IMG/VR virus record: IMGVR_UViG_3300025133_000037
Coordinates: 1 to 64,000 of that record
Strand: one strand, 5' to 3'
DNA from: a virus
Length of the DNA: 64,000 nt
The number at the start of each line of letters is the position of its first letter. The first letter of the stretch is position 1. The translations under genes were made by a program, and so were the position numbers. A model generated the notes under the pieces. It worked only from the letters and a program-made list of their open reading frames with translations. It was not told where the DNA came from and searched no databases. This document shows positions 6,678-52,792 of this stretch, one piece after another.

Positions 6678-9600
6678 TTATGTCACCAGAGGGTACATGG
6701 CGTTCCCAGCTTCTATGTAGCCTGCAAGGCTAGGGCTGAACGAAACAAAGACCATATCGTAATCTGGGTTTATTCCATCTGAACTATATATAGAGTCCAC
6801 TACTATATTGTCTCTTATTATAGTATTTTGAAGCAATGAGTCTTCAAAAATTAATATTGGACCTTGACCAAATCCTGCTCGTACAAATAAACAATTTGAT
6901 ATTATTATATTCCCACTTGCTGCTCCGGTTGATCCAGAATTTAATGCAAATGGCATTTCATACCCCGTAGATGAGGTTGATCCAGATGTTATACTTGCAC
7001 TTTCTGACCCTATATAGTTAATATCATTAAACCTTAGAATAGGGTTAGTGCTGTCTACACTAACTCTGATGCTTATGACTGTATCAGTTAAATCGCTATC
7101 AAAAGATGAAAAATCACTTTCATAAGTAAATCTTTCTAATGTAACTCCACGCCCTATATCGTCTGTGCCAGCGTACTCATGATCACCTATAACAAATATA
7201 GGGCTGCCAATCCCGTACACTCCCCCTGATAAACCAGGGGGATATGATTCGTCTCTTTGAAGTACTGTATTCGGGCCCTCTCCTGAAATTTTTACGCCGA
7301 AGTTTACATTAATTTGCTCTTTTATATAATATCTTCCTTCCTTAATCAAAACACTCGGAGTACCCATATCAGGAAACATTTTTGAAAACATTCTAGCATA
7401 ATCAACAGCTGTCTTTATATCTGTGAAATGCCCAAATCTTTGATCATTAGCAACAGTTATATCTGCTATAATTTTATAGTCTAAATGATCGACAAAAAGT
7501 CGTAAATCCGTAACGGTTAATGTATCGATTTCCACATAAGCTATATGAGCTACATTTTGAGACGCAAATGGGGATATATAATCTGTTCCCATATCTGGAT
7601 CGACTTCATTTCCAATAACCAGGCATCCGTATGCATCTAATCCGATATAAAAATTTTCAGTTGATCCATTTGTATAATTATAAATCAAAGAATCTACGCC
7701 CAAGTATTCAAATCTAGTTCCATTAACAACTGAAACACCAGGATTTATTGTTATAGAGCATGTATCGTCACCATTATCTATAATTTCTTCGACATCAATA
7801 TCTCTAATTATACCCGACCCTCTAAGCTCGTTTCTCGGGCCCTGAATATATCTTTCTAATAAAGCATCTCCAACAATTGTATCATCAACGGTTCCTGTTG
7901 AACGTTTATCCGTAATACTTAAAGCTCCAGACCCACCCAGTCCGGCATGCGGAGCCTCGATTATAACTCCAAATTCTGGAGAATAAACTGCGCGGCATAG
8001 ATGCAGAACACTGCTTGGAAGTTCTCCATATCCAAACAGTGAGGACTCAAGGATGCCGACTCCAAATGGTGTTATAGATGCGTTTGGGACATATACACTC
8101 AAAACTATGTATTCCATTTTGTCTAAAGAATATACCTTATATATTCCAGTTGCGCCCACAAAGGTTTCTGGGCCGGATATTCCGGCGGGCTCTTGCTTTA
8201 TAGATGCCATCCCCGATGTATCTACGGTCAAAGTATACTCTATATCCTGCCCTATAAAGCCTTGTGATACGTCTGTAACTACAGCATAAAAATTTGCTAT
8301 ATTCATATGTCCGGCTATATCTATTCTTCTTCGATAAAATAAATTTGCCGTTTCATCTATAAACACGTCAAGCATAATTAGGCCATCAGAGATTACAGAC
8401 TCCCAGCTTTCTAAAAATTCTAATTCAGACACTGAGGCAGTTGATCTTAAGAAGAATATTGCAGACTCATCAGATAACTCGCCCTGCAGTGTAGACCCCG
8501 TATAATCTAGGGTAATTTTATCCTCCTCAACTATCATTACAGAGCGCGTTCCATCATCGTCAGAGTCAGAAGATCCCTCTATAACGCATAAGTCGCCAAC
8601 TCTAAGGCCATCTGTTATGAAGTCTACCGCCGTAGAATTTATTTCAACAGTTCCTGCTCCAATCGAAACAGAGTCTGCTCCATATTTTGTAATCTTTCCA
8701 TAATCCTCAATAATTCTTCCGTTAATGTGAAAAGAATTTCCGGCAGATCCTTCTATAAGCCTATCTTTAAGGTAATCTAAGCCTAAGGCTTCCGCTGCAT
8801 CATTCGAAGACGCATCAACTATTTTTAATGTTCTATTTTTAACATCAGAGGAGTTATTAGGCATAACATGCGTTATAGCAAGTTCAAAGCACTTTAATGA
8901 TCTAAGTTTATAAGCAAATATATTTAAATTATTATCTACACAATATTGATTAATTGTTGCCACAATTATATCTAAAGATTGAGTGTCATAAGATGAGTTG
9001 AAAACATTTATTTCTACTGCATCACCTTCGTCTATCTCTATTGCTAAAGTATCTGTCGAACCATCAAGCACATTAGACGCCCTCATTCCAGAGGAAATTA
9101 CTGTCGCAGAATTAGGCGGAGCAACTTGAATCGAAGGAGTGTTGCTGAATCCAGATCTCGGTCTAGCAGAGCAGTTAAGGCCATTCTCGTTATAATTTGT
9201 ATATATACTCTTTTTTATTTGAGCCGTAGTACCTGTTGTGAATGCATTTAATGGTCCTCCGAAGATTTCTACATAGTCTAAATCTTCTCCCGGAGTCAGC
9301 ACTACAGACATAATTATATATTCCGCATTATCATCTTCATCTGGAGATGTCAGAATTTCCAATATATCAAACGGCTTTACGTCAGCAACAGGAGTCGGCT
9401 CATCTGGAAAGGCTATATACATCGAACTGGAGCCGCTTGGCCCGGTATATGCTATTTCTGACTCGCTAACAATAACTCCACCCGTTTCATTGCCTTCTAA
9501 CGCATCATATACAGATCCTGTTCTTATTATTCCATTAGAGTTTAAATTCAATATAGAGTTCCTAAGGCCAGTTCCCTCCAGATCAGCGAGATCATCAATA

Positions 9601-10274
9601 GCCCCTTGAACATCGCCCGAGGGAATTAAGTCCGATGTTTTGTCATTATCATAATAAATTTGATTTGAATTATGAGAATTATTATTCTGATCTACAGCTT
9701 CGCCTGTATAATGAATATGCTCATTGTATAATATCTCAAGAGCCTCTTGCAAGGTTCCGTCTTCAAGAGATCTGGTTGAAAGAGCAGATTCGTCCACCTC
9801 TGCTGCGACTACAGTTATTGCTTGCGCCCTATGTCTATTTATGGCATCCAAATGAACATGTGCAGATAAAATTCTGTTTAACTCTTCTAATGTTTCTATA
9901 AATAATGCAAGCCGGCTATCTAATATAGATATCTCATCCTGAAGCAATGTTGTAGGGTAGTTTAGTCTTAACTTGCTTTCGTTAATTGCGGCGGTCTTTG
10001 ATACATCAGAGTCTGTAATTGGGCCAGATAAGAGGTTTGCCCTATCCAATGCTTCTTTAGTGATATTTCCATTATCATCCATGGCATTAGACAATCTCGC
10101 AGCGACTGTATTGCCTATTGCGCCTTGCGGATTTATCCCCAAGGTCTTTTCTATATTAAATATTGCCGACCTCAAACTATTAAGCACATCGGAGCCTATC
10201 TCTGTAATATTATCTCTAATTACAGGGATCTCTACTGATGTATCTAATTTATCTGGGTAATTTGACTTTGCCAT
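6678..10274 (-). CDS. Tail fibre or tail spike protein (1198 aa)
   Basis: This very long protein has an N-terminal anchor of about 120 residues nearly shared with the next fibre gene (MAKSNYPDKLDTSVEIP, then RANLLSGPITDSDVSKTAAI). A long beta-rich shaft follows. Near residues 960-1110 comes a pectate-lyase-like right-handed helix region (GVKISGEGPNTVLQRDES), a fold used by phage spikes that bind or cut polysaccharide. No catalytic residues can be assigned by eye. It lacks the C-terminal chaperone-like domain found in its paralogue. The shared N-terminus should attach both fibres to the same baseplate site. It would act outside the cell in host recognition. Confidence 0.75.
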   Translation of the reverse strand: MAKSNYPDKLDTSVEIPVIRDNITEIGSDVLNSLRSAIFNIEKTLGINPQGAIGNTVAARLSNAMDDNGNITKEALDRANLLSGPITDSDVSKTAAINESKLRLNYPTTLLQDEISILDSRLALFIETLEELNRILSAHVHLDAINRHRAQAITVVAAEVDESALSTRSLEDGTLQEALEILYNEHIHYTGEAVDQNNNSHNSNQIYYDNDKTSDLIPSGDVQGAIDDLADLEGTGLRNSILNLNSNGIIRTGSVYDALEGNETGGVIVSESEIAYTGPSGSSSMYIAFPDEPTPVADVKPFDILEILTSPDEDDNAEYIIMSVVLTPGEDLDYVEIFGGPLNAFTTGTTAQIKKSIYTNYNENGLNCSARPRSGFSNTPSIQVAPPNSATVISSGMRASNVLDGSTDTLAIEIDEGDAVEINVFNSSYDTQSLDIIVATINQYCVDNNLNIFAYKLRSLKCFELAITHVMPNNSSDVKNRTLKIVDASSNDAAEALGLDYLKDRLIEGSAGNSFHINGRIIEDYGKITKYGADSVSIGAGTVEINSTAVDFITDGLRVGDLCVIEGSSDSDDDGTRSVMIVEEDKITLDYTGSTLQGELSDESAIFFLRSTASVSELEFLESWESVISDGLIMLDVFIDETANLFYRRRIDIAGHMNIANFYAVVTDVSQGFIGQDIEYTLTVDTSGMASIKQEPAGISGPETFVGATGIYKVYSLDKMEYIVLSVYVPNASITPFGVGILESSLFGYGELPSSVLHLCRAVYSPEFGVIIEAPHAGLGGSGALSITDKRSTGTVDDTIVGDALLERYIQGPRNELRGSGIIRDIDVEEIIDNGDDTCSITINPGVSVVNGTRFEYLGVDSLIYNYTNGSTENFYIGLDAYGCLVIGNEVDPDMGTDYISPFASQNVAHIAYVEIDTLTVTDLRLFVDHLDYKIIADITVANDQRFGHFTDIKTAVDYARMFSKMFPDMGTPSVLIKEGRYYIKEQINVNFGVKISGEGPNTVLQRDESYPPGLSGGVYGIGSPIFVIGDHEYAGTDDIGRGVTLERFTYESDFSSFDSDLTDTVISIRVSVDSTNPILRFNDINYIGSESASITSGSTSSTGYEMPFALNSGSTGAASGNIIISNCLFVRAGFGQGPILIFEDSLLQNTIIRDNIVVDSIYSSDGINPDYDMVFVSFSPSLAGYIEAGNAMYPLVT

Positions 10275-10287
10275 TTAATATATCCTA

Positions 10288-13200
10288 TTATCCACAGTGG
10301 TAAGTGCATCCGACGAATGCTTTTTTATAAGTTTGTCCATCGAAGTCGAATTCGACACAATCGTAATTATTACTATCTAAATCAAAATCGCAATCTTGAG
10401 TAATCTTTGCAACTGTATAGTTATGAAGCAAATCATCATCCTGTCTCATTCCATAGCCTGGAATTTCGCAAGTAGTTATGTAATCTCCATTTTCTAGGTC
10501 TCCATTTATATTACAAATCCAAACGGCGCCCTCTCCAAGAGAGTTTAATATAACCTTATTATCGTATTCGAGATCTTTTTTATATGCACTTACAAAGTTA
10601 CCTGCAGCAAATGTTCTATATTCATTATTTGGATCTTCAGCATCAGAAACTACTCCAAATACCGACTTTTGCATTCGCTCAGAAGAAAGCTCAACAAGTG
10701 GTAATGATTCATTTATTTTTATTGATTTATCAACATACGATCCCAAGGAAACAGCTATCAACCCAACATACTCTTCGATATCATCAAAGTTAAACTGATA
10801 ATCAAATAAAGTTCTGTGCTGTCCTGTAAAATTCATTTTTTCAGTACCACCAGTAGTTGGGTTGATAAAGCCGCATAGAGTAGAGGCGCCATAGATGCTG
10901 CCCGTTGTAAAACATAGTTTGTCCGCATCGTTAGTATTATGAGTATCAAATGTCGTGTCCATGCCCATGTGCCATGCCTGGTTGTTCACAGAGTGAATAA
11001 CGGTAAACCCACGCCATGTGCTATCAGCCTGCTGCTTCACTCGAATTCCATGCTGAGTGCCTGTTGGGGCCCCGAAAAAGCTAACCCCCTGTTTATCATC
11101 CAGAATCGTCATTGTTTGGTTGTCGGATTTGTCTCTAATATAAAGATAATCATACGCCGCACTGGCCTCAAAAGTCCACCTAGTGAGTCCACCCTCCTTC
11201 AGAATCAGCGACGGATTATAGTTGGTCTCGGCATCAATTATGAGGTTAGCGTCATAAGCGCTGCTTTTAAATATGGCGTTAAATACAGAAGGGGATTCGA
11301 CCTCAAAGCCAAAGCAATCATTAACATTTACAGCCCCATTAACCTCAAGGCCGTCATCGGCCGTTAGGAGGCCGCCTACGGTCAAATAATCGCCTACGGT
11401 CAAATAATCGCCTACAGTTGTATATTCTCCAACGGTTAAATGTCCCGGTACATCAAAGTCTCCGGATACACCCGTTGCATCAAGAGTTCCGCCAATAGAA
11501 CCTGCAGTGACAGTGCCTGTTACATCCAAATCTCCTTCGAAATAAGTGCTTCCAATAACGTGGAGATTATAGTTGGGGTCATTTTCATTGATCCCAACCT
11601 TCCCATCTCTAATAGTAAGGATCATATCTCCCTCTGTTCCTATTTGAACAGCAGAGTTTGCGGCAGTAGGTAAGTTGCTGTTTAAACATAAAGCATTTTG
11701 AAGAGAATCTGTATAAGTTGCCGCAGCTTCACCTTCAAGCCTTATCTGTGCATTACTATCTCCGCCATCTTGAGACATTTTTATGCCGGCGTTTCCAGAT
11801 TCAGAAGAATCATCAGGGTCTGCTTCTAACTTTATAAAAGAACTTCCTCCGTCTTTAGCTCTCAAATGAAGCATTTCATCCGGAGTAGAGGTCCCTATTC
11901 CAACATCTCCCCCGATGACCAAGTTTCTGCTAACCCTATCCCCCCAAGGCTTTGAGTTTCCCGGGTTAATATAGGGAGTCGTTGATGAGCCATCGCTATC
12001 TGCAATAATATTTCCACGAAACTCTACGTTATTCTCAGAAGGACACTCTACTACGCCAAATATATGACCAGACCCCCGATTCTTTACTAAGTAGTGAGTT
12101 TCTCCGTCGATATTTCCATCGCCGGTCCCCCTTAGTACGTTATTTGTAATAATTATATTTCTACACTTAGATGCAGACCAATCGTCCGAGATTAACAGCG
12201 CGGGCGTATTTAGATGCTCACAATTAGATATAGACAAATTCCCAACTTCTTCAGAACCATCGCTATCTTCACTATAAATCCAAACCCCAGATGAGTACTC
12301 ATTAAAGTCGGCCTTTTCGGATCTGTCAAAAATTACATCGTTAACTCTAACTCCCCAGTTTAGCTTATTTCCATCTGAATCTTTAACCCAAGGGTCAATG
12401 GTAGCTATGGAGCAATTCTTCATCCTGAGATTACTTATAGTTACAAATCCATTGCTCAAAACATCATCATCTCCATCGGGAGTGCTTTGAAGCCCCGGCC
12501 CCGGGACAAACAGGTAGCCGGCATGGGCGGGTGAAGATGAAGATGCATCCGTTCTGTCATCTTCATCTTCACCCGCATTGGTATACACCTTCATTATATC
12601 AAGTACAGTAGAATAGCCTTCCCCAGTTATGTTTATAGGAAAGTTTATCCAACTGCCGTAGCGAGATGCGGCCTGATAATGATCAGCAGCAGTATAGACT
12701 CCAGTCTCAACCCCTGTATCGATCACAACCTTGTGGACTCCAGACTTTAAATGAACCGTTGGGACGCCAGCTTTTGGAAAAAGTTGAGAAAATCTCTTTG
12801 CGTATTTTAACGCTGGTCCAAGTTCAGAAAAGTGGCCCATTCCATACTGCGGGCTTACTGTTATTGAGTTTAAAACAGTAAGATCTAAATCATTTATAAA
12901 TAATCTTAGGTCAATAGCATCAATAGTTATTCCATCATTTTCCACGGTTCCTAGTATGCAGTAATTATATGGATCAAATGGGCATGCGCATGTTATGCTG
13001 TCTGCAGCTTTAAATACAACCTCACCCCATTCGTTTACTGCTACAAAAAATTTATCTACATCGGCAACAAGAATGTCCGTTATATAAGAATCTACTTTAT
13101 CTAGCTCAAACCTCTTGCCCTTGACATAGCAGACTCCTGCAGAAACAGAGACTGTATATGTAACTCCATTATCTAATGGATCAATTACCTCAAGTCCTCT

Positions 13201-15696
13201 TATTACTCCATTAGATCTAGTTTCCGCCATTGGACGCTGAATTGCATTTTGTACAACGTCCGTTCCCAAATCTTTATATCCAGTGCTCCCTCTTCTAATC
13301 TTAGAAAAGATACGAGGATAGTCTCTTCCTGATCCCGTAACTCTTGATACATCAGCCTCATACAAGACCCTTCCTAACATCAAGTTTTCTTCTTGATTAA
13401 TTTCACTATAGCCATAAAGACTCATTACAAAACTTCCATCGCCCTCGATGAGCGTGGCTATTGCGTCCGAATCTTTTATAAATACTTTTACAAATATATT
13501 ATATTCTCCAGAATATAATGTTACATACTCTGCTTTTATGCCATTTATTTCAACCTCTGGGCCTGAATCGAGGGATAATAGAATCCTCATATCTGCAGGG
13601 TCTAGATCAGCCTTATCTACAGCCAACAGCCCTGGTGTCGCCTCCTCATATACAGATATATCGCCTTCAAAATCGCAAATAGCCACAAGACTTTCCGATA
13701 CACCATCGGAGACTATAGCATATGTTAATCGTTCTTCATAAAAAATATTTCTATTATAATCCATAAAAATGTCTATAATAGAACATTTTCCGCTTGAAGA
13801 AAACTCTCTAAACGCCAAATCATTCAAGGAAAGTGAGTTTTTATATATATAAAACTCAGTATCGTCAGTAGTTTCTCCGACCCACTCTTGATCAGGAAGC
13901 TGCGTATTATCCACAGATATTCCGGAAGAAGTGACATCTAAAATAATATATGTGCCGTCATCACTTAGGGAATTTGTAATTACAAGTATATCTCCATCTC
14001 TAACGCCCTCTGCCTCAAAATCTATGCTAGTAGAGGTTACTCCGGATGTTCCCTGCAACAACGTAAGCCCAGTCTCTACTAGTTTCGCTTCAAGATCTGT
14101 AAATGCATGACCTTGAATATAATATCTAGTTCCAAGACCAAAGTCTATATCCATATCTTCAAAGCTAACTAATCCTAATGAATCCAATGCATCATCTGAT
14201 CCTCTAGAGACTGTGATGTATCTGCTAGTGTCAGACGAACTTGGCATAGAATGAACAAGGGCTATCTCTGATTGCTTGCCCTCTTCATAGTCGACCCTAT
14301 AAGCTGATACGCTAAGCCTATTCTCTGCAAACTGGCTATTCATCGCCTTTATTATAGAATCTATAGTTTGGCCATATCCCGTCGTTGTGCCTAGATCTCC
14401 ATCATATGTATCGATCTCGACGGCCGTACCCCCATCTATGGATATATCAAAATATCTATTTCCAAGAGCTATTTCTAATGGTCTGATTTTTTTAGTAATT
14501 ATTGTTGCAGCATTTGGATTTGCAATCTGCAAAACATCAGCATTACTAAAAGACGAAGAGGATCCAAGGCCCTGATATTCTCTTGTGGTAATTAAAAGAC
14601 CAGCTATATTCGCTTCTCTGTTTGGATTTTTATATATTTTAGCCTGAGCACCAGACTCAGATGCAGAAAGAAATTTTCCGTAAACCTTAACGCCCTCAAT
14701 GCTAAGCCCATCAGTAGAGTAATCTACGTAGCTTATTTGATATAAAGCATCTCCGGTTCCATCTGTTATCTTTAAAATATCACAACGTTCAATAATAATC
14801 GCCGGCACATCTGGTGGGGTGGAAAAAATTACAGAAGATACTGAAGCTCCAGAAGATGAGGTAGATTCAGAATAATATATATCTTCTGAATCTAAAACTA
14901 GCATTCCCTCTTCGTTATCAGATGCAGAAACAAGCTTTGTGGTTTTTAATCCTGCATTACTATGCTGATAATCTTGATGATCATCTAACTGCGCTGTAGC
15001 AATTTCCAGCAAATCATCAATAGCTCCCTGAACATCCACTGAATCTATATATGCGGCTGTATCTTCATTGTCATAAAATACTTGTAGGGCCTCATGGGCT
15101 CTGTTTGTCTCTGATATATCGGTACCATCATAGTTTATATGTGATGCAAATATTGACTCAAATGCCCCCTGGGAAGTCGTAGTGCTTAAGGAGGTTATTC
15201 CATCGGAAGAGGACGTGCTTTCAATTGAGTCGATAGTAATTGCCTGCCCCATGTGTCGATTTGTGGCAGCAGGATGCACGTGAGCGCCAAGAAGAATGGC
15301 AAACTCCTCAATCGTTTGCAACAATGAATCTACCTGTTTTACTAATTGAGATATTTCATCTTGAAGCAATGTTGTAGGGTAATTTAGCCTTAGTTTACTC
15401 TCATTAATTGCGGCAGTCTTTGATACGTCAGAGTCTGTAATTGGCCCAGATAAAAGATTCGCACGATCTAAAGCTTCCTTTAGAATATTTCCATTACCAT
15501 CTAATACTTTATTTAATCGATCAGATACTGTATTTCCAACAGCACCTTGAGGGTTTACCCCCAAGGTTCTTTCTATTTGAAAAATGGCTGTACGAATACT
15601 GTTTATAACATCAGAGCCAATTTCTACGATATTATCTCTTACCGCAGGAATTTCAATAGAAGAATCTAATTGATCTGGGTACTTTGATTTTGCCAT
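10288..15696 (-). CDS. Giant tail fibre with C-terminal G2-type chaperone domain (1802 aa)
   Basis: The N-terminal 120 residues match those of the downstream 1198-residue fibre. The middle is beta-rich with a parallel-helix stretch (about residues 1000-1250). Two fibre motifs of the VGIGTSTPDEMLHL type follow (the second is VGINENDPNYNLHV), then short six-residue repeats of TVGDYL. The last 120 residues (GVVSDAEDP, then NSLGEGAVWI, then a Cys-containing tail) resemble the peptidase G2 intramolecular chaperone domain, which trimerises fibres and can cleave itself. It would be a long receptor-binding fibre. The start has AGGA upstream. The G2 call is by pattern; the fibre call is strong. Confidence 0.8.
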   Translation of the reverse strand: MAKSKYPDQLDSSIEIPAVRDNIVEIGSDVINSIRTAIFQIERTLGVNPQGAVGNTVSDRLNKVLDGNGNILKEALDRANLLSGPITDSDVSKTAAINESKLRLNYPTTLLQDEISQLVKQVDSLLQTIEEFAILLGAHVHPAATNRHMGQAITIDSIESTSSSDGITSLSTTTSQGAFESIFASHINYDGTDISETNRAHEALQVFYDNEDTAAYIDSVDVQGAIDDLLEIATAQLDDHQDYQHSNAGLKTTKLVSASDNEEGMLVLDSEDIYYSESTSSSGASVSSVIFSTPPDVPAIIIERCDILKITDGTGDALYQISYVDYSTDGLSIEGVKVYGKFLSASESGAQAKIYKNPNREANIAGLLITTREYQGLGSSSSFSNADVLQIANPNAATIITKKIRPLEIALGNRYFDISIDGGTAVEIDTYDGDLGTTTGYGQTIDSIIKAMNSQFAENRLSVSAYRVDYEEGKQSEIALVHSMPSSSDTSRYITVSRGSDDALDSLGLVSFEDMDIDFGLGTRYYIQGHAFTDLEAKLVETGLTLLQGTSGVTSTSIDFEAEGVRDGDILVITNSLSDDGTYIILDVTSSGISVDNTQLPDQEWVGETTDDTEFYIYKNSLSLNDLAFREFSSSGKCSIIDIFMDYNRNIFYEERLTYAIVSDGVSESLVAICDFEGDISVYEEATPGLLAVDKADLDPADMRILLSLDSGPEVEINGIKAEYVTLYSGEYNIFVKVFIKDSDAIATLIEGDGSFVMSLYGYSEINQEENLMLGRVLYEADVSRVTGSGRDYPRIFSKIRRGSTGYKDLGTDVVQNAIQRPMAETRSNGVIRGLEVIDPLDNGVTYTVSVSAGVCYVKGKRFELDKVDSYITDILVADVDKFFVAVNEWGEVVFKAADSITCACPFDPYNYCILGTVENDGITIDAIDLRLFINDLDLTVLNSITVSPQYGMGHFSELGPALKYAKRFSQLFPKAGVPTVHLKSGVHKVVIDTGVETGVYTAADHYQAASRYGSWINFPINITGEGYSTVLDIMKVYTNAGEDEDDRTDASSSSPAHAGYLFVPGPGLQSTPDGDDDVLSNGFVTISNLRMKNCSIATIDPWVKDSDGNKLNWGVRVNDVIFDRSEKADFNEYSSGVWIYSEDSDGSEEVGNLSISNCEHLNTPALLISDDWSASKCRNIIITNNVLRGTGDGNIDGETHYLVKNRGSGHIFGVVECPSENNVEFRGNIIADSDGSSTTPYINPGNSKPWGDRVSRNLVIGGDVGIGTSTPDEMLHLRAKDGGSSFIKLEADPDDSSESGNAGIKMSQDGGDSNAQIRLEGEAAATYTDSLQNALCLNSNLPTAANSAVQIGTEGDMILTIRDGKVGINENDPNYNLHVIGSTYFEGDLDVTGTVTAGSIGGTLDATGVSGDFDVPGHLTVGEYTTVGDYLTVGDYLTVGGLLTADDGLEVNGAVNVNDCFGFEVESPSVFNAIFKSSAYDANLIIDAETNYNPSLILKEGGLTRWTFEASAAYDYLYIRDKSDNQTMTILDDKQGVSFFGAPTGTQHGIRVKQQADSTWRGFTVIHSVNNQAWHMGMDTTFDTHNTNDADKLCFTTGSIYGASTLCGFINPTTGGTEKMNFTGQHRTLFDYQFNFDDIEEYVGLIAVSLGSYVDKSIKINESLPLVELSSERMQKSVFGVVSDAEDPNNEYRTFAAGNFVSAYKKDLEYDNKVILNSLGEGAVWICNINGDLENGDYITTCEIPGYGMRQDDDLLHNYTVAKITQDCDFDLDSNNYDCVEFDFDGQTYKKAFVGCTYHCG
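11373..11426 (-). repeat. 18-bp tandem repeat encoding TVGDYL
   Basis: Two exact 18-bp units (CGCCTACGGTCAAATAAT on the plus strand) are followed by a diverged third. They encode six-residue repeats in the giant fibre, of the kind that stack into a narrow beta-solenoid. Repeat number could vary by slippage and alter fibre length. Confidence 0.8.
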
Positions 15697-43692: not shown

Positions 43693-45462
43693 TTACAATC
43701 TCCTCTTAATATTTGCCAAAGTAGACCTTGGATATTCGCTTCTTCTCTCTAACCCTGGTTTAATAGTAAAACCCTTTGTTAAATCAAACTTATAAGCCAT
43801 ATACGCATACATAAGCGCCATAAATCCGTCATTCGGAGTGGGGCCTTTTGTGAATGTCTTTACAGGCTGCCCTCCAGAAATTTTTATTTTTGACTCCATA
43901 GATGTGCAGTGGTCTATCAACCACTCTAAATATTCATAGCTTTTCCAAGGGAATCTAACCTTGCCTTTTCTAAATAAATCAATTAACTCATCTATAAGTA
44001 AATCTTTATTATAAGATATAATCAATTCGTCTTCTCTATATTTTACCGGTTTTAAAAGACTTCCACTCCCTTGTGCTCCTAGAAATCTTTCCCGATACAT
44101 TGTTTGAAGATCATGAACTACATCTTGTCCAAAAAACCAATCTGAAACCCCCCTTGTCACACCGAACCGCCTATACATCTCTCTTATAGTTTCTTTTTTA
44201 AAATCAAAATTATTTTTACGCAACTTATGAGCATGCTCAATAGATATAGTTCCATCGGGAGAGGCGGAAATGACTACTACACAAGAGAATGATTGCCCGC
44301 CCCTTGAATTGGGGTCATCATCTTTGCCGCCCCAGTCTACTCCTAAATAAACTGATTTTTCATTCGGGCTTATACTTTTGGCAAAAGATCTATCCGGATC
44401 TCTACACAGCTTATATACCTCCGCCTTAGTTAATGGTGCGCCGGCTCCAGAGTAAAATTCACCAATAACTTCATTCTTCCAAATCCTTTCAGTCTGGGCC
44501 GGATTATTTTCGGGCATCAATTTTTCTATATTTTCTCTAGTAAAGTATGGAATATACAATTGATTTATATGAAACCCAACATATTCACTATCGCCAGAAC
44601 CGGCCCCGACCCATCTTCCTAACTCTATAGCTTCAACTTTTTTTTGCTTAGTTCCACACAATGGGCACTGCACAATATTATCATATAGCCATATAGATCT
44701 CCATCTATCATCATCGGGAAGGTAAAATGGATAGGTTTTTCTGCAATTAACACACCCCAGGTGATAATACCGTTGGTCTGACATATCCCAGATCGTAGAA
44801 AAGTGACTGTTCTTTTCCTTCGGGGTTCCAAAGAAAACCTGAACCCCCTGACCTGTTGGACCATATTTCGCAGCGGTTAAAATCTTTGTAGCGTTACCAA
44901 TGGCGTGCCCAAACATGTCTTGAACCTCGTCAAAAAACACTACATCTGCCGTCATACCACGAATTCTATCGCCATCTGACCCCAAACTGTCAACCCATAG
45001 CGTTCCAGTGTTAAACTGCTTCATAGTCAGGTTGTCAACAGAGTTTGAGCTAATAAGCTTATTCTTTGTTACAAAATCATTTTTTGCTGTTCTTATTAGA
45101 GTTTCTAGTTTATCTTGAGAAAACTTTTTTACCTGCCCAAGGGCCGGAAATAAATGTACAACTCGAATATTTGGATTGCAAAATAAACCACTATTTGTGA
45201 AGAACAAGTCTAATGCTCCAGCCATAACAGTTGCACCGACCTGTCGGCCCTTCTTGATAACAACAGGCTTGCCATCCTTACGGGTAGCCTGTAGGGCAAT
45301 ATATCTATAGATATCGGCCATAAACTTCCAGCCGTTATCTAAGATAGTAAACTCTGCACCATCCAAGGTTAAATTGTTTTGAACAAAATGTGCGGGGTCA
45401 AAATCTAGAAAGCTGGTTTTTAATTGGTCAAATAATTGTTCTTCACTCTTTTTTTTTGCCAT
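43693..45462 (-). CDS. Terminase large subunit
   Basis: This 589-residue packaging motor has a Walker A-like KGRQVGATV at residues 71-79, Walker B DVVFFDE at 173-179, and a coupling motif QVFFGTP at about 208-214. Two Cys pairs (237/240, CVNC; 266/269, CPLC) look like a zinc site between ATPase and nuclease domains, a feature of GpA-type terminases. The nuclease part has YLGVDWGG (Asp at about 376) and SDWFFGQD (Asp 441). It uses ATP to pump DNA into the prohead through the portal encoded by the next gene, and cuts concatemers. Confidence 0.92.
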   Translation of the reverse strand: MAKKKSEEQLFDQLKTSFLDFDPAHFVQNNLTLDGAEFTILDNGWKFMADIYRYIALQATRKDGKPVVIKKGRQVGATVMAGALDLFFTNSGLFCNPNIRVVHLFPALGQVKKFSQDKLETLIRTAKNDFVTKNKLISSNSVDNLTMKQFNTGTLWVDSLGSDGDRIRGMTADVVFFDEVQDMFGHAIGNATKILTAAKYGPTGQGVQVFFGTPKEKNSHFSTIWDMSDQRYYHLGCVNCRKTYPFYLPDDDRWRSIWLYDNIVQCPLCGTKQKKVEAIELGRWVGAGSGDSEYVGFHINQLYIPYFTRENIEKLMPENNPAQTERIWKNEVIGEFYSGAGAPLTKAEVYKLCRDPDRSFAKSISPNEKSVYLGVDWGGKDDDPNSRGGQSFSCVVVISASPDGTISIEHAHKLRKNNFDFKKETIREMYRRFGVTRGVSDWFFGQDVVHDLQTMYRERFLGAQGSGSLLKPVKYREDELIISYNKDLLIDELIDLFRKGKVRFPWKSYEYLEWLIDHCTSMESKIKISGGQPVKTFTKGPTPNDGFMALMYAYMAYKFDLTKGFTIKPGLERRSEYPRSTLANIKRRL

Positions 45463-47619: not shown

Positions 47620-48435
47620 CTAAGACTCAATGTTCTTCAGCTCATAATCAGTCATATTAATAGCGTCATCCAAATATTTGTTTACAAGCTTTCGCTTAAT
47701 AAGCTCTTCTTTAAATCGACCTATCATCGGAACCATCGGCAGCAAACCCATCTCGACCAAATAATGCATCGTTATGTCTGCATTAGCCTCAATGGACTCC
47801 CCAATTAATGAGGTCAAAAATGCATCCTTTAATTTCCATCTGTTTTCACCCGTAAAAGAGCGTCGATTGTTTTGGGCATATTGCACAATATCCCCATCTA
47901 TTTTAAAGTTAAGTCTTGCAGCAAAATTTACTGCTCTAAAAATCCTTCTTACATCATCCTGCAAAGTAATCTTTGCGGGGACGCAAGTTTTTATCAGCTT
48001 GTTATCTAAATCTCTAAAACCATTGTTGGTCGGATCTATAAGGCCGTCTTTCAAAAGCTTCTGATGTAAAGTGTTTATAGTAAAATCTCTACTATAAACC
48101 TCAAAAAGCTTCCGATCTGTTATTCCAAGATCTTGCTCCAAAAAGCTTATAACATCACTGGAAATAAAATTACTTGAAAAATCTAAAGTTTTATTTTCTA
48201 AAAAAACAGAAATATGACTATCTGAGAATACCTTAAATGCTTTTTTTAATTCATAAGCAGACGTAATTCCCAGGCGGGTGGTGCCACTATCATTGGTTGT
48301 TATATCAATATCTCTAAAATCATTTTCTCTATTTAAATAAATATCTCGCGGAATACCACCAACTATGTAAGGCTCTGATATATAGTTTTCCTCACATATT
48401 CTGAATATTTTTAATAAAATATCATTAAGGCCCAT
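47620..48435 (-). CDS. CCA-adding enzyme or poly(A)-polymerase-family nucleotidyltransferase
   Basis: This 271-residue protein has the full head of a class II CCA-adding/poly(A) polymerase. It has GGIPRD at residues 26-31, the metal-binding pair DID at 42-44, SRDFTIN at 116-122, the DPTNNGFRDL segment at 135-144, and DDVRRIFRAVNFAARL at 161-176. The catalytic acidic residues are present. The C-terminal body is shorter than in bacterial enzymes (about 400 residues). It would add CCA to tRNA ends or tails to RNA. No tRNA gene was seen in this window. Start has GGAG. Confidence 0.8.
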   Translation of the reverse strand: MGLNDILLKIFRICEENYISEPYIVGGIPRDIYLNRENDFRDIDITTNDSGTTRLGITSAYELKKAFKVFSDSHISVFLENKTLDFSSNFISSDVISFLEQDLGITDRKLFEVYSRDFTINTLHQKLLKDGLIDPTNNGFRDLDNKLIKTCVPAKITLQDDVRRIFRAVNFAARLNFKIDGDIVQYAQNNRRSFTGENRWKLKDAFLTSLIGESIEANADITMHYLVEMGLLPMVPMIGRFKEELIKRKLVNKYLDDAINMTDYELKNIES

Positions 48436-51018: not shown

Positions 51019-51573
51019 TTAGTTTCCCTTCCTCATCGCTCCCGCCGGAGGCAAGGAGTAAAATATAATATCATCAGATTCCTGTTGACTAGAGCCATTT
51101 TCTTCTGAAAACATAAATTCTTCAGGAATATCATTGTCCAAAGATGAGGCTACAACAACTTCTCCCGCAATTATCCTCTCGACTATAGCTATGACTAACT
51201 CATGCATATCGGTACTATACGGAAGCTTATACGCACGAACTCCATTCATTCTATTGTTTTCAAAGGTTAACAATCTCATTTTTGATTCAGGCCAAGATTC
51301 TCCATCTTGGCCTTCTGCCCAAAAGTATATAGCCCCTCCTACCCCCCTTGCCTCATCAGGCTCCTGGGCCAATGCCCAATACACCCTGTATTCTTCCGGC
51401 ATTAACTGGGTTGTCGGCCATCCATAAAAATTTTCAATAGAAGATATGGTTGACACCGAAAAGAGTAAGGCCACAAGAATGACTCCAGACTTTAAGATCC
51501 AATTGCCCTTTAGGCCTATTATTAGCCACAAAAGTAATGAAAATAATATAACAAATGATATAGTCAATCCCAT
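51019..51573 (-). CDS. Two-helix membrane protein, third member of the proton-channel cluster
   Basis: The ATG chosen has GGAG about 10 bases ahead; a GTG five codons upstream is the alternative. The 184 residues begin with two hydrophobic helices (about 4-21 and 26-45), followed by a 140-residue polar domain that should be on one side of the membrane. That domain contains FYGWPTTQLMPEEYRVYWAL and ELVIAIVERIIAGEVVVASS, and ends with an acidic, Gln/Ser-rich linker. No known family. It directly follows the ExbB-like and ExbD-like genes, overlapping the latter. It may be a partner that senses or uses the motor. Confidence 0.6.
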   Translation of the reverse strand: MGLTISFVILFSLLLWLIIGLKGNWILKSGVILVALLFSVSTISSIENFYGWPTTQLMPEEYRVYWALAQEPDEARGVGGAIYFWAEGQDGESWPESKMRLLTFENNRMNGVRAYKLPYSTDMHELVIAIVERIIAGEVVVASSLDNDIPEEFMFSEENGSSQQESDDIIFYSLPPAGAMRKGN

Positions 51574-52184
51574 CTTGACATACTCCACGGCCTTTCCCCG
51601 ACCTTTCTGACAAGATCTTTCTCTAAGTTACTAATGGATATCACATCTCCATTGGAATTCAAAGTTATTCTACACACCGTCTCTTCTTGGCCTCTTCTCT
51701 CCAAGGTTATTGTCTCCAGCAAAACCGTAGAAAAGGGGTTCATCTTATCAATCTGCACTGTAACCATGGCCGGCTCTGGCACTCTTTTTGAATACATATG
51801 TAAATTCAAAACATATTCTCCAGGCATTACCTTTCTTATCGTTACGATTTCTCTATTTTCCTTATATTCAATTATACCAAACTCTGTTTGCACTGCATCA
51901 TGATTTCCGCCTAAATCATCCCTATCTAAATGTATCAGACTAGTCTCTTTGTTGCCAAAATAAATCACATTTCCTTGTGGATCCTGAATGTAAGTGTCTA
52001 TATCATCAGTGACATCCTCTGGCCAAGATATTGTTATTAAAAAATCTGCATGAACATCAACTTTTCCCTCATCGCTAACAGGGTTGACCAAAACAAAAGC
52101 AACAACAAAAAGGGCAGCGAAGCATAGTAGTGTATTAAATAAAAGGTCTAAAAATGCAACATTTGTATTGTATGTTCGCTTCAT
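51564..52184 (-). CDS. ExbD/TolR/MotB-like membrane protein
   Basis: The N-terminal membrane segment is the hallmark: NVAFLDLLFNTLLCFAALFV with a buried Asp at residue 13, equivalent to the proton-carrying Asp of ExbD, TolR and MotB. The rest (residues 38-206) is periplasmic and beta-rich. The start of that part (ITISWPEDVTDDIDTYIQDP) resembles DUF2135-type or Ig-like domains, not the OmpA-like peptidoglycan-binding domain of MotB. It would pair with the channel protein encoded just upstream, using the proton gradient to drive movement of this periplasmic part. The target is unknown. Confidence 0.8.
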   Translation of the reverse strand: MKRTYNTNVAFLDLLFNTLLCFAALFVVAFVLVNPVSDEGKVDVHADFLITISWPEDVTDDIDTYIQDPQGNVIYFGNKETSLIHLDRDDLGGNHDAVQTEFGIIEYKENREIVTIRKVMPGEYVLNLHMYSKRVPEPAMVTVQIDKMNPFSTVLLETITLERRGQEETVCRITLNSNGDVISISNLEKDLVRKVGERPWSMSRWD

Positions 52185-52186
52185 CC

Positions 52187-52714
52187 CTAATCACCGCCTA
52201 CGCCTTGACTTAAAATAAAATATTGTATTTTTAACAAAATGCTGCACACAAGGCCTACCAGTGTCGTGTATAAAGCCGTGGACATTCCTAGGCCAAGGTC
52301 TCTGATTAGGGCCTGCACCGTTTGGGTGTCGTCAACGTTTAAGGTTGCAAACCCACCTAGCATAGATATAAACCCGATAACAGTTCCTACCATTCCTATC
52401 GACAGAAATAAATCACTCATAAACCAGCCGGACTCTATACTTTCCCTTATATCTTTGCCTCTCAGTATGTTTATATTTTCTCCATAATAGCCAACGCTCC
52501 ATGTCTGTATACCGCAGATTGCTGATTGTATATAAAATAATGATAATATCACAAAGCTTAACTTTGTTACGTCATTATCCCATACTGTATGAAAAACATT
52601 GCCAAAAAAACAAAAGCCTGTAAAAATAGCTATTAGCAATACCATTAGCCACCATTTTAAAAATAATTTATGCTTGACTATTTCGTCCTTACCCTTTTTT
52701 ATTCTCTCATTCAT
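52187..52714 (-). CDS. ExbB/TolQ/MotA-like proton channel protein
   Basis: This 175-residue protein has four membrane segments (about 19-41, 52-74, 101-121, 139-168). The last two carry the family signature: GMVGTVIGFISMLGGF at 107-122 and GLGMSTALYTTLVGLVCSIL at 141-160, with threonines at 111 and 150-151 lining the proton path. It is smaller than TolQ or ExbB (about 230-245 residues). In bacteria five of these surround two ExbD/MotB partners and harvest the proton motive force. The matching partner is the next gene. A phage version beside packaging genes is unexpected. Confidence 0.85.
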   Translation of the reverse strand: MNERIKKGKDEIVKHKLFLKWWLMVLLIAIFTGFCFFGNVFHTVWDNDVTKLSFVILSLFYIQSAICGIQTWSVGYYGENINILRGKDIRESIESGWFMSDLFLSIGMVGTVIGFISMLGGFATLNVDDTQTVQALIRDLGLGMSTALYTTLVGLVCSILLKIQYFILSQGVGGD

Positions 52715-52723
52715 GTTTTCCCC

Positions 52724-52766
52724 AAACTAAAAAGTCCCAGCTTTATATTACTATAAGCCGGGACTT
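52724..52766 (-). terminator. Strong terminator before the proton-channel cluster
   Basis: A 12-bp stem (AAGTCCCGGCTT / AAGCTGGGACTT, one G:U) with an 11-base loop is followed on the minus strand by TTTTAG. It insulates the membrane cluster from the upstream 323-residue gene, so the cluster probably has its own promoter or depends on read-through. Confidence 0.85.
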
Positions 52767-52792
52767 CAATCGTTTAAAAAGTAATTTAATAG

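Follow-up and report, generated by a model that had tools for sequence, protein, structure and literature searches.

We identified a cassette of three adjacent genes, here called Q, D and T, which more probably than not represent a separate, undescribed class of three-part ion-driven envelope motor that is present in Alpha-, Beta- and Gammaproteobacteria and was acquired on at least two occasions by large phages, in which it would drive some envelope process in the infected cell. The cassette was examined in a 64,000-nucleotide stretch of viral DNA (the window, positions 1 to 64,000 of IMG/VR record IMGVR_UViG_3300025133_000037). The whole record comprises 131,661 bases and encodes a terminase large subunit, GroEL, a RecA-like protein and structural genes, with GroEL, RecA and most of the structural genes named by eye. 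The phage copy is very probably a working ion-driven motor, given its channel residues, gene arrangement and selection regime. As to what it does, the best explanation taken as a whole, which we hold with about even confidence, is that of one inner-membrane motor performing the envelope job of the host cassette during infection.

Three minus-strand open reading frames were found where the original prediction had located them, with the motifs that it gave (Table 1). Q and D are separated by 2 bases, whilst D and T overlap by 25 bases, the start of T lying inside the end of D. The strong terminator proposed ahead of the set was borne out by RNA folding, the hairpin and the UUUUU run that follows it giving -23.3 kcal/mol and z = -6.05 against 200 shuffles; a simple consensus scan gave no flag for it. 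Compared with a 92%-identical relative, dN/dS was 0.036 for Q, 0.041 for D and 0.061 for T, values which, together with the recurrence of the set in many genomes, indicate that the three frames are not chance occurrences. The description of the genes as lying next to packaging genes holds only loosely, as terL is located approximately 5.6 kb downstream of the trio and in unrelated phages the trio is placed elsewhere. Among the structural genes of the window, a poly(A)-polymerase-head/tRNA nucleotidyltransferase-type protein is also encoded (47620-48435; PF01743, E = 1.4e-12), and two adjacent large genes (6678-10274 and 10288-15696; 1198 and 1802 aa), the N-termini of which are nearly identical, apparently represent duplicated structural or fibre proteins.

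Table 1. Positions of the cassette and associated features within the window
Feature	Position	Strand	Description
Q	52187-52714	minus	175 aa; four predicted helices; channel Thr111 and Thr151; MotA/TolQ/ExbB superfamily (by sequence)
D	51564-52184	minus	206 aa; B-type partner; N-terminal membrane helix with Asp13, then predicted periplasmic all-beta sandwich
T	51019-51588	minus	189 aa; GTG start; two N-terminal helices; small predicted periplasmic alpha/beta domain
Intrinsic-terminator-like hairpin and U-run	52731-52767	minus	Upstream of Q; parts the cassette from the preceding gene
terL	43693-45462		

Sequence comparisons place Q within the MotA/TolQ/ExbB channel superfamily. The protein matched Pfam MotA_ExbB (PF01618) with E = 5.9e-8 (33.0 bits, cut-off 22.9), and the same model matched 16 of 17 diverse Q proteins at a looser threshold (E <= 0.1). 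A profile built from the 17 proteins retrieved MotA, TolQ, ZorA, PomA and ExbB chains from the PDB, the best PDB profile match of Q being the MotA chain 8gqy (E = 1.4e-7), and hhalign comparison with TolQ/ExbB/MotA proteins from host genomes gave 96.3% (E = 1.6e-9). On alignment to TolQ/ExbB, GTVIG of Q fell on GTVxG and TTLVGL on ATAxGL (ATAIGL), with GMVGTVIGF and TTLVGL corresponding to the last two channel helices of the family. The channel threonines were retained in phage and bacterial copies alike (T151 in 77 and T111 in 75 of 78 homologues). An ExbB/TolQ-type channel protein with its signature in the last two helices had been predicted, and both the above-cut-off Pfam match and the kept threonines agree with this, whilst the profile searches recovered the expected family relationship for Q. 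Hydropathy analysis indicated four helices, as in MotA, with a short loop between helices 2 and 3, and the protein ends shortly after the last helix. Bacterial Q frames were mostly 199-340 aa, compared to about 138-149 aa in siphophages, the phage versions thus being stripped down. A tblastn search of cultured phages with Q returned no match; it was the search with D that located the trio there.

D resembles ExbD/TolR, as was predicted, in possessing a membrane helix with an ion-carrying aspartate, but it does not belong to that family and its periplasmic part is predicted to be all beta. Asp13, in the sole membrane helix, was invariant in 78 of 78 phage and bacterial homologues, and all fourteen positions counted in D (including W54, D61, D63, R88, D89, D90, E112, R117 and N127) were likewise invariant (78/78). 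The conserved charged cluster may be a binding site for a metal ion or for a ligand of the wall or surface. ExbD/TolR membership was rejected on the basis that neither D nor its relatives matched PF02472 and that the hhalign comparison was not significant (3.8%); only the helix aligned, with Asp13 falling on the functional Asp. The periplasmic domain of ExbD/TolR has a mixed alpha/beta fold, and no domain of this kind appeared in the AlphaFold2 model of D (mean pLDDT 85.5), in which a helix at residues 6-33 is followed by 12 strands forming a predicted all-beta sandwich. The same model, along with the lack of a Pfam OmpA match, upholds the view that the periplasmic part is not OmpA-like. D had no Pfam, NCBIfam or PADLOC match, a PDB fold search with the model gave only non-specific beta-sandwich or chance matches, and a viral structure library search returned mainly phage proteins of unknown function.

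D gave a local match (E = 4e-8) to phrog_1735, a group including phiCbK gp145 that has the beta domain of D in common with it, as DUF2135 possibly does. A D-x-D plus LD-x-D motif belongs to this domain, whereas the phrog_1735 proteins are about 670 aa long and adjoin neither Q nor T. DUF2135 itself (PF09906) had no match in the genome of the window and was listed for none of the D proteins. The weak D matches in phiCbK, Vequintavirinae, DSS3_VP1 and ME3 were set aside as proteins of about 670 aa with only the beta domain in common. In loci L049-L054 and L057 (phiCbK, Vequintavirinae, DSS3_VP1, ME3 and Microcystis phages), the 670-aa phrog_1735 protein was always followed by a protein of 130-140 aa. 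TerD genes, sought in six hosts purely as comparison sequences for the beta domain, were not found.

The third protein of the run, T, had been described as a two-helix membrane protein belonging to the set, and almost every locus indeed encoded it next to Q and D. Two N-terminal helices were indicated by hydropathy and by the AlphaFold2 model (mean pLDDT 80.2), and a basic inter-helix loop suggests that both ends of the protein lie in the periplasm. The C-terminal tail carries a conserved F-Y-x-L-P-P motif. T matched no known family, and its model had no PDB fold match at E < 0.001. TonB/TolA transducers combine a single N-terminal helix with a characteristic C-terminal fold, a combination that T, with two helices and no fold match, does not display.

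Amongst phages, the trio was detected in at least 43 IMG/VR contigs including the window (our own count over separate scans started from Q, D and T, which gave the same picture), a lower bound as the scans matched short exact peptides; the metagenomic contigs may be chimeric or cut. Contigs long enough to show the trio contained all three genes, nearly always adjacent, in order and on one strand. Exceptions were L241, where Q-D and T are 2.6 kb apart with other genes between D and T, and L242, where T was seen without the other two close to the end of a contig. The trio is also carried by at least three kinds of cultured Rhizobium and Sinorhizobium phage, among them Sinorhizobium meliloti phage 16-3 (p038, p040 and p042). 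In three cultured rhizobial phages, a homing-type endonuclease gene lies inside the trio, and homing-type/HNH genes were seen between Q and D or D and T at L045:5252-5989, L046:5243-6001 and L056:5541-6083. The surrounding genes, named by eye, varied by phage group, comprising GDP-mannose dehydratase with terL-portal, actin-like genes or tail-like genes. As the neighbours change while the trio persists, the trio behaves as a module, and this linkage marks Q, D and T as one unit that travels together in other phages, as anticipated.

The cassette is not confined to viruses. A scan of GTDB with the D alignment yielded 216 relatives, of which 80 were kept and combined with one plasmid locus, and Q, D and T occurred together in 81 of these 81 bacterial loci (T of L121 was below threshold in the automatic call, and L127 has the order Q-T-D). 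Of 13 further bacterial regions found by D alone, 11 had all three genes called together; in L220, Q and D were accompanied by a T-like protein of 157 aa that stayed below threshold, and at L209 only T was called cleanly, owing to overlapping frames. The cassette was present in 36 of 289 Alphaproteobacteria genomes, or about one in eight species, and in 16 of 398 Pseudomonadota. Genomes that host it also hold ExbD/TolR and MotA/TolQ/ExbB genes, indicating that it is no replacement for them. Three of the genomes measure 0.8-1.0 Mb, and in these the cassette is flanked by housekeeping genes whose order is the same. The original reading of the set as a phage-encoded motor thus stands insofar as phages carry it, but the set is not phage-specific, being chromosomal in many Proteobacteria, including those with very small genomes.

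The surroundings of the bacterial cassette were conserved between near relatives only, and no conserved non-cassette neighbour that would fix its function was found among the bacterial loci. Directly after T, seven loci (L158, L159, L163, L164, L166, L169 and L171) encode a short protein of lipoprotein or exported type that has a YFPL...W-x-Y pattern, present as three tandem copies in L169, with a similar protein in L210. It is possible that this protein is a fourth component, missing from the phages. Azospirillum contigs carried two divergent cassette copies about 25 kb apart (L058/L128, L061/L125 and L059/L124), and two MAG contigs labelled Parcubacteria/Patescibacteria (L110 and L131), possibly misbinned, contained a proteobacterial cassette.

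A tree was built by a quick method from the concatenated Q, D and T sequences. The window and 27 further IMG/VR phage rows, 28 in all, formed one side of a branch (SH-aLRT 99), sister to the cassette found in small alphaproteobacterial genomes (0.8-1.0 Mb, approximately 28% G+C). The phage infects, probably, an alphaproteobacterium. The siphophage group of 16-3 joined Azospirillum-type bacterial cassettes, and T4-like rhizobiophages formed a third set on long branches with unsure placement. These separate placements imply that the cassette moved between bacteria and phages at least twice, and the wider bacterial spread points to a bacteria-to-phage direction.

TolQR, ExbBD, MotAB and ZorAB are, from their structures, A5B2-type motors. 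With TolQR and ExbBD the cassette shares a PF01618 ring-type channel protein with matching threonines, a small partner whose one membrane helix carries an Asp close to the cytoplasmic end, and a third envelope protein in the operon, in the position of TolA or TonB. It differs in the four predicted helices of Q, compared to three in ExbB/TolQ, in the predicted all-beta sandwich of D without a PF02472 match, and in T, which has two helices and no TonB/TolA-like fold. The MotAB/PomAB stators likewise have four helices in the A protein, and MotA is the best PDB match of Q, but the cytoplasmic loop of Q is short and the OmpA-like domain that binds peptidoglycan is missing from D; the phage neighbourhoods examined contained no flagellar genes. 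Zorya ZorAB is an A/B motor pair of the same superfamily, and Q gave local matches to ZorA models; Q, however, lacks the long ZorA tail, D lacks the OmpA-like domain of ZorB and T is absent from Zorya. Membership of Zorya was rejected, as the local ZorA matches were the sole link and no ZorC, ZorD, ZorE or other PADLOC match was found in the neighbouring genes tested. To our knowledge, the recognised membrane motor families that are driven by the proton motive force and whose task is known are few (Mot, Tol, Ton, Agl, Gld and Zor). Searches of the literature and protein family databases found no description of the trio. A lone ExbB gene has been described in chronic phages of Lentisphaerae, which is a different case (PMC11361711), and an evolutionary overview of the motor superfamily is available (PMC12505986).

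By homology with this superfamily, Q would make up the channel ring of a motor of the MotA/TolQ/ExbB type, with five Q around two D. D would serve as the B-type axle, its Asp13 loading and releasing the ion that powers the motor, most probably H+, between the threonines of Q, and its periplasmic beta-sandwich dimer would be turned or displaced as in related motors. The linkage and topology of T suggest a dedicated third subunit whose periplasmic domain and proline-rich tail may receive or transmit the movement; its invariable presence with Q and D suggests a role in receiving or anchoring motion. Channel residues kept in both subunits, the tandem A/B pair and purifying selection together argue, by superfamily analogy, for a working A5B2-type motor, and the strong purifying selection on Q, D and T indicates that the phage copy is probably an active motor rather than a decoy.

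The phage copy probably derives from a bacterial cassette, and the likeliest reading is that it performs the same envelope job while the infected cell makes virus. The job itself would be the delivery of force in the envelope from the proton motive force, a Tol- or Ton-like service. A shared job is favoured by the retention, in phages and bacteria alike, of all the components and of their invariant residues. As no conserved non-cassette neighbour accompanies the bacterial loci, "Tol- or Ton-like" is an analogy, and support of the host envelope as the specific job of the phage cassette is put forward tentatively.

None of the roles suggested in the original prediction, namely superinfection control, envelope disruption at lysis and interference with host motors, received direct support. 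The idea that a Zorya-like motor, perhaps with a secreted protease, blocks incoming competitors through superinfection exclusion or anti-phage defence draws on the local ZorA similarity of Q and on a trypsin/HtrA-like secreted protease gene that adjoins Q in four rhizobial siphophages (L043, L045, L046 and L056) and one bacterial genome with a probable prophage (L219). The protease was encoded in 16 of 36 trio records, and a homologue was detected in 23 of 27 trio-bearing cultured records, out of 38 protease records among 50,697. However, this co-occurrence is confounded by the shared ancestry of rhizobiophages, which explains part of it and makes the protease link a lead rather than proof; the window's own record has no such gene. 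Defence is unlikely, considering also that no ZorC/D/E-type gene or other PADLOC match lies beside the set, that Q at 175 aa is without the long ZorA tail, and that in the bacterial genomes examined the cassette is located between housekeeping genes. A periplasmic metabolic route boosted by the phage, such as PQQ-dependent oxidation or its metal uptake, appears still less probable: by eye, seven alphaproteobacterial cassettes (L152-L154, L160-L162 and L165) adjoin an apparent PQQ-dependent dehydrogenase or PQQ-associated ABC substrate-binding and beta-propeller genes, but other cassette genomes are without such neighbours and no such gene was seen beside the cassette in phages.

Mechanical weakening of the envelope by the motor at a late stage of infection is, in our view, very unlikely. 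Carrier phages with known hosts do infect double-membrane bacteria, and in the window the cassette is near packaging and structural genes, but its placement in phage genomes shows no tie to lysis genes, and bacteria, even those with genomes of 0.8-1.0 Mb, keep it as an ordinary chromosomal set, which argues that it is not toxic in itself. Poisoning of host TolQR, ExbBD or MotAB by phage proteins that mix with them as decoy subunits is highly improbable, even though those motors are present in bacteria that carry the cassette and their ring proteins are relatives of Q. No conserved channel residue is missing from Q or D, D has its own periplasmic domain, T always accompanies them, and the phage copies, on which purifying selection is strong, are closer to bacterial QDT than to TolQR or ExbBD. 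Both lysis disruption and host-motor interference fit poorly with ordinary bacterial genes that keep all channel residues.

If the reading of the cassette as a separate class of envelope motor is true, a virus would be supplying a working motor driven by the proton motive force. A further motor family, in which the B subunit is of a new type and a third protein is obligatory, would add to the known envelope machines of bacteria and would mean that viruses carry complete motors. The carriers include about one in eight alphaproteobacterial species and cultured, tractable phages, and phage 16-3 makes the motor directly testable.
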